From: Acidobacteriota bacterium
Lineage (GTDB): Bacteria; Acidobacteriota; Vicinamibacteria; Vicinamibacterales; UBA2999
Length of the DNA: 64,000 bases
Direction: 5' to 3'
NCBI GenBank assembly: GCA_016789705.1
Contig: JAEUQR010000158.1
Span: forward strand, 1-64,000
Positions 1-14,100 of the stretch are shown here, in pieces (within the stretch, counting starts at the first letter, position 1; every line of letters begins with the position of its first letter). Position numbers and translations under genes: made by a program. The notes under the pieces were generated by a model. That model made no database searches and was not told the DNA's origin. It saw only the letters and a program-made list of their open reading frames with translations.

Positions 1-826
1 ACACATGCACGTCGGTGAAGCCGGGCACTTCTTGCTCGATGTTGTAGGTGCCGGTGCCTCAGCCGCTGAAGATCTCAGTCGGCAGGCCCTTCGCCATCAG
101 CGCCTCGAAGACGCGCACGTTCGCCTCGAGATTCCTGAGCGCCGTGGCGCGCCGCTCGGCGAACCCCGTGAGATGCTGCGCGCCGCCGTCGTACGAGAGC
201 ATGCCGCGCAGGCGCAGGTTCGGCAGTCGGCTCACCAGTTCAGCCAGGGCGATGGCGGCGTCGCCGGCCGGGATGCCGCTGCGCGTGCCGACGGCCACGT
301 CGATGACCACGTCGGCCGTGAGCCCGGCGGCCTTTGCCGCGTCCGAGAGGTCGCGCGCGTTCTTCTCCTCGTCCACGGCCTGGATGAAGTGGGCTGACCT
401 GGCGCGAAGCGCCATCGCGCGACGGATCTTCGACGGCGAGGGGTTGGTCGTCGTCATGCAGATGCGCTCGATGCCGGCCGCCATCAGCGCTTCGGCTTCG
501 CTGACCTTGGACGTGCAGATACCGAGCGCGCCCGCGGCCAGCTGCTTCCTGGCGATGTCGGCGCTCTTGTGCGTCTTGGCGTGCGGCCGCGCGCCCAGCC
601 CTTTCGCCGCGAGCCGCGCCTGCATGGTCGTGATGTTCGACTCGAGCGCGTCGAGGTCCACGCAGAGCGCCGGCGTGTCGAGTTCCCACTTCGAGACGCC
701 AATCGTCTCTTCCATCGCCCGCATCTCGGCGGCGGAGTAGCCGCGAGCCGTGCCCGGCACCCAGACGTGCGCGGCGGCCATGCCGGTGGCGGCGATGAAG
801 GTGCGGCGGGAGGCGGAATCGGTCAT
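1..826 (-). pseudogene. DSD1-family PLP-dependent enzyme (D-threonine aldolase / D-serine dehydratase-like), partial, with in-frame TGA
   Basis: Fold-type III PLP enzyme with an alanine-racemase-like N-terminal barrel. A twin-arginine-type leader (SRRTFIAATG, residues 6-15) suggests Tat export. The PLP lysine lies in the motif RPHAKTHK, near Lys84. The reading frame runs 255 codons and then meets TGA (plus-strand 59-61) inside the glycine-rich phosphate-binding motif: it reads FSG-stop-GTGTYNIE where the family has SGGGTGTY. The frame stays open and family-like after the stop until the window edge, so the rest of the gene lies outside. A GGA to TGA change explains it most simply (mutation or assembly error). 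Its ATG overlaps the stop of the upstream phosphoesterase gene (ATGA), implying coupled translation. Family call is firm; functional state is not. Confidence 0.7.
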
Positions 827-11563: not shown

Positions 11564-12849
<1,286 letters not shown>

Positions 12850-12850
<1 letters not shown>

Positions 12851-14100
12851 TGGCCGGCCTGCCACGCGTGGTCGTCGTCGGCGGCGGCTTTGCGGGACTG
12901 GCCGCGGTGAAGGCGCTGGCGGGCGCGCCCGTCGAGGTGGTGGTGGTCGACCGCCACAATCACCATGTCTTCCAGCCGCTGCTGTACCAGGTGGCCACCG
13001 CGGGGCTCTCGCCCGCGGACATCGCGGCGCCCATCCGCTGGATTCTGCGGCGCCAGGCGAACGTGCGCGTGCTGCTCGACGAGGTCGTGCGCGTGCATCC
13101 GGCCGCGCGGCGGCTGGACCTGGCGGCGAGCGGCGCGCTGACCTACGACCATCTCGTCGTCGCCACCGGCGTGACTCACGCCTACTTCGGCCGCGACGAC
13201 TGGGCGGCGCACGCACCCGGCCTCAAGACCCTCGACGACGCGGTGGCGATTCGCCGCCGCGTGCTCGTGGCCTTCGAGAAGGCGGAACGGGAAACGGATC
13301 CGGCGCGTCAGCGCGAGCTGCTGACGTTCGTCGTGATCGGCGGCGGCCCGACCGGCGTCGAGATGGCCGGCGCGATTGCGGAGATCGCCCGGCAGGCGCT
13401 CGCGGACGAATTCGATGCCGTGGCGCCGCGCACGGCGCGTGTCCTGCTGCTCGAAGGCGGGCCGACCATCCTGCCCGCCTACGTGGACCGCCTGCGCGCT
13501 TCGGCGCGCGAGGCGCTCACCGCGCTCGGGGTCGAGGTGCGCGAGTCCACCCGCGTGACCGACGTCGGCGACGGCGTGGTGCGCGCGGGGGCCGAGACGA
13601 TCGTCGCCGGCACGATCGTGTGGGCGGCCGGCGTGCAAGCCTCGCCGATCGGCCGGCAGCTCGGCGCCGAGGTCGATGGCAGCGGCCGCGTCCGCGTGGC
13701 GGCGGACCTGTCGGTGCCGGGGCATCCGGAGGTGTTCGTCGTCGGCGACCTCATGGCGCTTGCCGGCGCCGACGGGGCGCCCGTGCCGGGCGTGGCGCAG
13801 GCGGCCATGCAGTCGGGGCGCCGTGCCGCGGCGAACATCCTCGCGCGCCTGCAGGGACGTCCGCCGGCGCCGTTCACCTATCGCGACCTCGGCAACATGG
13901 CCACCATCGGCCGCGCGCACGCGGTGGCCGATCTCGGGTGGGTGCGCCTCACCGGCTACCTGGCGTGGCTCGCCTGGCTGTTCCTCCACCTGCTCTTCCT
14001 CGTCGGCTTCAAGAACAAGGTGGTGGTGCTCGTGCAGTGGCTCGTGGCTTACGTCACACGCCAGCGCGGCGTGCGGCTCATCACCGGCGACGAGCGCTGA
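12850..14100 (+). CDS. ndh: Type II NADH:quinone oxidoreductase (NDH-2)
   Basis: A 416-aa membrane-associated flavoprotein that passes electrons from NADH to quinone without pumping protons. FAD-binding VVVVGGGFAGL is at residues 7-17; the NADH-binding Rossmann motif VVIGGGPTGVEMAG is near residues 160-173; FAD contact VFVVGDLMAL; quinone-site-like PGVAQAAMQSG. The hydrophobic C-terminal stretch LAWLAWLFLHLLFLVGFKNK anchors it to the inner membrane. Start ATG 12850 overlaps the permease stop by one base; GTG at 12847 directly before it is less likely. Coupling to an ABC efflux cluster is unexpected. Confidence 0.93.

Follow-up and report, generated by a model that had tools for sequence, protein, structure and literature searches.

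The window analysed here, a stretch of 64,000 bases from an Acidobacteriota genome, starts at base 1 of the 77,838-base contig C27 of its source assembly (199 contigs, estimated 99.16% complete). Its first 826 bases hold a gene running on the minus strand towards the contig end, and this gene is cut at window base 1, since the contig itself begins there. Three features are recognized:

62-826, minus strand: first 255 codons of a gene for a fold-type III PLP enzyme of the D-threonine aldolase / DSD1-like kind, cut short by the end of the contig; assigned by PF01168 and by orthologue identity.
59-61, minus strand: in-frame TGA at codon 256, a codon for Gly in near homologues, aligned to Gly231 of the A. 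xylosoxidans D-threonine aldolase (DTA), from homologue codons and alignment to 4v15.
1-58, minus strand: last coding bases of the contig, where more private substitutions occur at window positions 37, 32, 5 and 1, from comparison with congeners.

Bases 826 to 2 form a single reading frame, the sole interruption being the TGA at 61 to 59, around which the translation reads ...GLPTEIFSG*GTGTYNIEQEVPGFTDVHV. An earlier, sequence-only reading had noticed the stop within FSG-*-GTGTYNIE and the family-like residues around it; these residues do align with orthologues on both sides, hence the frame is coding-like up- and downstream of the TGA. The 255 upstream codons match PF01168, the alanine-racemase-type N-terminal PLP barrel (E 1.6e-21, 77.5 bits, cut-off 24.1), and the gene is 95% identical to its counterpart in G004, 94% in G003, 88% in G001 and 81% in G002. 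The full-length orthologue of the congener G004 contains both PF01168 and PF14031, the C-terminal D-ser_dehydrat domain (E 4.7e-15); its PDB matches are the D-3-hydroxyaspartate aldolase 6qkb (E 1.4e-65, over residues 43-406 of 407) and the D-threonine aldolases 7dib, 4v15 and 7yqa. With these matches, the DSD1-type family originally named proves correct in kind. The 690-bit NCBIfam cut-off for BhcC (3-hydroxy-D-aspartate aldolase, NF045642) was missed by both the orthologue (288.1 bits) and the window part (161.7 bits), and no substrate is therefore assigned to the window enzyme. The protein begins, at window 740-826 on the minus strand, with MTDSASRRTFIAATGMAAAHVWVPG, a start common to the congeners, which we take to resemble a twin-arginine export signal; if this were true, a DSD1-like PLP enzyme would be found outside the cytoplasm.

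Codon 256 was compared in two sets of homologues. From 54 locus identifiers taken for the nearest ones, 29 distinct loci, 45-100% identical to the G004 query and including the query's own locus, were found to cover the motif, and all of them feature Gly at this codon (GGC in 24, GGG in 2, GGT in 2 and GGA in 1). The motif originally given as SGGGTGTY is the same or close in these near relatives, and the claim that TGA replaces a Gly codon holds. The proposed one-base step from GGA to TGA does not: GGC is found in the four congeners, as in most near loci, so that TGA is probably two bases away from the ancestral codon. The second count considered 55 remaining loci, 14 of which without coverage of the codon; after removal of duplicates, of the window and of five already counted loci, it contributed 29 further distinct loci, mostly paralogues or more distant sequences, 27 with Gly and 2 with Ala. 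Ala is also found at this position in the solved D-threonine aldolase 7dib: Gly at codon 256 is not absolute across the wider family. The comparison with sister genomes, suggested at the outset as a check, thus returned Gly in all four congeners and, over the combined 58 distinct loci, 56 Gly, 2 Ala, no TGA and no Cys.

Homologue searches were scored over 59 relatives, 43 genomes from the family and 396 from the phylum; of the latter, 21 had a match at E 1e-100. The window was the only close match with an internal stop. In-frame stops were also flagged in G032:C11 (TGA), G027:C723 (TGA) and G048:C20 (TAG), the first two in more than one search, where open frames of 369, 381 and 374 codons, respectively, extend over the matched region; these flags are best read as alignment gaps.

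Within bases 1-58, three complete codons are altered, producing the replacements Q264E, H265Q and Q274H, and window base 1, the first base of the cut codon 276, is unlike the Gly codon of near homologues. In the alignment to the A. xylosoxidans enzyme, along which residues were counted by hand, the TGA, codon 274 and codon 276 correspond to Gly231, Gln249 and Gly251, respectively. According to PMC4401734, Gln249 bonds the pyridine nitrogen of the cofactor in that enzyme, while Thr233 and Gly251 bind the phosphate. Among the equivalents of these ligands in the doubtful stretch, Thr258 (Thr233 in A. xylosoxidans) is kept, codon 274 reads His instead of Gln and codon 276 differs at its first base. 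Gly256, Gln274 and Gly276 are each conserved in 29/29 near loci, and His265 in 25/29; Gln274 is replaced by Arg in some distant paralogues. Such changes are hardly to be expected in a working enzyme of this clade.

The distribution of substitutions along the gene was evaluated by counting those private to the window, i.e. differences from the four congeners at positions where these agree with one another. In the first 765 bases, before the TGA, 18 private substitutions are found at 546 testable sites; 17 of them lie at third positions and only one is nonsynonymous, the pattern of a gene under purifying selection. The last 61 bases contain 6 private substitutions at 52 testable sites: five can be translated, all of them nonsynonymous, and the sixth falls within the cut last codon. 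Changes of the G>T/C>A class make up 5 of the 6 in the tip versus 1 of the 18 before it. Fisher tests of the tip against the preceding part yield 0.013 for all changes, 2.3e-5 for nonsynonymous ones (2.4e-4 without the third-base change of the TGA, which by itself would leave a Gly codon synonymous) and 2.3e-5 for the G>T/C>A class. These values are optimistic, since the TGA itself served to define the 61-base boundary and one codon holds two of the changes; the private-change counts draw on four congeners. When each congener is taken as the focus in its turn, no private nonsynonymous change is found in the same 61 bases, in 4 cases out of 4. The TGA is present as originally described, and it does not stand alone, being clustered with other private changes in the last 61 bases.

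Synteny with contig C35 of the congener G001 indicates what is missing beyond the contig end. The alignment of the window begins at its base 3, corresponding to C35 base 56,834, and a second contig of the same genome, C172, ends exactly where its own alignment meets C35 base 58,813. About 2.0 kb are accordingly missing between C27 and C172, and the gene is cut by an assembly gap. The end of C172 across the gap has a clean frame, as judged from a single inspection. The rest of the gene, to which the sequence-only reading had also directed attention, was not found: the gene stops at contig base 1, and a search of its own genome with the C-terminal 153 residues returned only paralogues, at most 47% identical, and the C27 tip. 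In G001, the stretch absent between C27 and C172 includes a minus-strand frame beside the gene (CFGGGTGLPSLLGGLK...; L221, G001:C35:57317-58300).

Irregularities were observed in two further copies of the gene. That of the congener G003 (L007, G003:C281) has a stretch translating as XXX near residue 310, followed by a frame shift, and is therefore also imperfectly assembled. In the G025 orthologue (L255, G025:C11:8800-10300; also L018), the reading frame shifts at the corresponding glycine motif, within TTCAGGGCGGCGGCACC; a second draft genome is thus disrupted at this GGC-repeat site, where a sequencing error may again be the cause.

Other contig ends of the assembly were used as controls. 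Sixty-one queries (both ends of C27 and the starts of 59 other contigs) were compared with 1.94 Mb of G001; 29 matched, 18 passed the length and identity filters, and 14 (C27 and 13 controls) were used, after exclusion of C28, C30, C46 and C54, the alignments of which do not reach near the tip. The 13 control starts contain 19 nonsynonymous and 59 synonymous differences and no stops in 254 terminal codons, to be compared with 161, 303 and 2 stops in 1010 codons for their inner parts (bases 62-304). A general contig-end error of this assembly was rejected, there being no excess among these starts. The raw nonsynonymous count at C27 (4/20 codons) is not unique, being exceeded by that of control C8 (5/19). 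C27 is distinguished by its stop and by the type of substitution, G>T/C>A accounting for 5/8 of the differences from G001 in its tip, versus 4/90 in the 13 controls. Given 13 clean control starts, a defect would be local to one contig tip, rather than a habit of the assembly.

Taken together, these data make it quite probable that the TGA belongs to a patch of miscalled bases within the terminal 61 nucleotides of the contig, and is not a biological feature. This reading is favoured because the window starts at a contig end facing a gap; because nonsynonymous and G>T/C>A changes cluster in the tip, the doubtful bases being confined to it (nonsynonymous changes at 5 of 52 sites, versus 1 of 546 before); because none of the congeners shows private nonsynonymous changes there; because Gly256, Gln274, Gly276 and, for the most part, His265 are kept in near loci, Gln274 and Gly276 being aligned to cofactor ligands; because private changes before the TGA lie almost all at third positions; and because of the G>T/C>A excess over the control tips. 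The assembly would have halted within a gene for a PLP enzyme that is in other respects ordinary and conserved, at a tip likely supported by a single read or very few reads, damaged or of low quality, across a GC-rich, GGC-repeat stretch. The actual gene very probably has Gly at codon 256 and is intact. The clean state of the 13 other contig starts and of the C172 end counts against an error at the tip.

The same cleanness of the other contig starts speaks for the main rival, a real and very recent pseudogene, in which the population would have the nonsense codon along with further damaging changes. At face value, the gene does end ahead of the PF14031 part, and altered cofactor ligands are compatible with loss of function. 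However, with a single nonsynonymous change among the 18 private ones of the first 255 codons, relaxed selection along the gene is not observed, and the decay would have to be restricted to 61 bases adjoining a contig break and to include two altered bases in a single codon; we consider this explanation unlikely. Were the TGA real, it would mean merely a recent gene loss.

Less probable still is a chimeric tip, in which the assembler would have entered reads of a diverged relative or of another strain. Contigs commonly break at forks of strain paths, and the terminal patch is unlike all four congeners; however, a functional diverged gene would be expected to differ mainly at synonymous sites and to retain the three residues invariant in near loci, Gly256, Gln274 and Gly276, and no second copy of the patch was found in the genome among the best 40 of 425 candidates, nor in any of 7 C-terminal matches.

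The genome can probably decode selenocysteine (Sec), as it features a tRNA-Sec (G000:C99:489-580, 64.4 bits, gathering score 47) and a SelB C-terminal domain (SelB-wing_3, G000:C87:44090-44206, 63.6 bits, cut-off 23.2); recoding was therefore worth testing, and true selenoproteins are possible elsewhere in the genome. One might imagine that the bases are correct and that the species is now losing the enzyme, the gene being a just-born pseudogene damaged within its cofactor loop, in a host reading UGA as Sec, where some full-length Sec protein might be made by chance; we regard this as very improbable. Programmed recoding of the UGA as Sec, or a general reassignment of UGA, is close to excluded, notwithstanding this machinery, by the lack of TGA or Cys at the codon in all 58 distinct homologous loci, by the additional changes downstream of the TGA, by the absence of a role for Sec at a structural Gly of the phosphate loop, on which we agree with the sequence-only reading, and by the folding of the 61 bases from the TGA (58 of them downstream). 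No SECIS-like hairpin had been recognized by eye there, and the predicted fold is indeed no better than that of shuffled sequences (MFE -14.4, z +0.31, with 119 of the 200 shuffles equally or more stable). The genuine selenoprotein supposed to lie in the same window did not emerge either, coding and Cys-neighbour scans of the window giving nothing convincing, with the family search covering the NDH-2-like frame at 12847-14097 only. An in-frame TGA in a Sec-capable genome may thus mimic recoding, and caution is in order: checking for a contig edge and for private substitutions gives here a simpler account.

The congener orthologue matches members of the D-threonine aldolase / D-3-hydroxyaspartate aldolase / DSD1 family (4v15, 7dib, 6qkb) over most of its length, and shares with them the glycine-rich and Q-x-G-S-Y cofactor motifs; in contrast, the window copy ends at the contig edge and has a TGA and changes within the cofactor motifs. 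The tip also resembles the GGC-context errors of Illumina sequencing, as described in PMC3622629, in that it has a GGC-rich context with an inverted repeat able to form a hairpin. According to the same paper, GGC and GGT by themselves are unreliable predictors of error-prone positions, and Illumina sequencing would be only a possible source of the changes seen here. The cluster of odd bases at the C27 tip likewise has a parallel in sequencing or assembly errors at contig termini.
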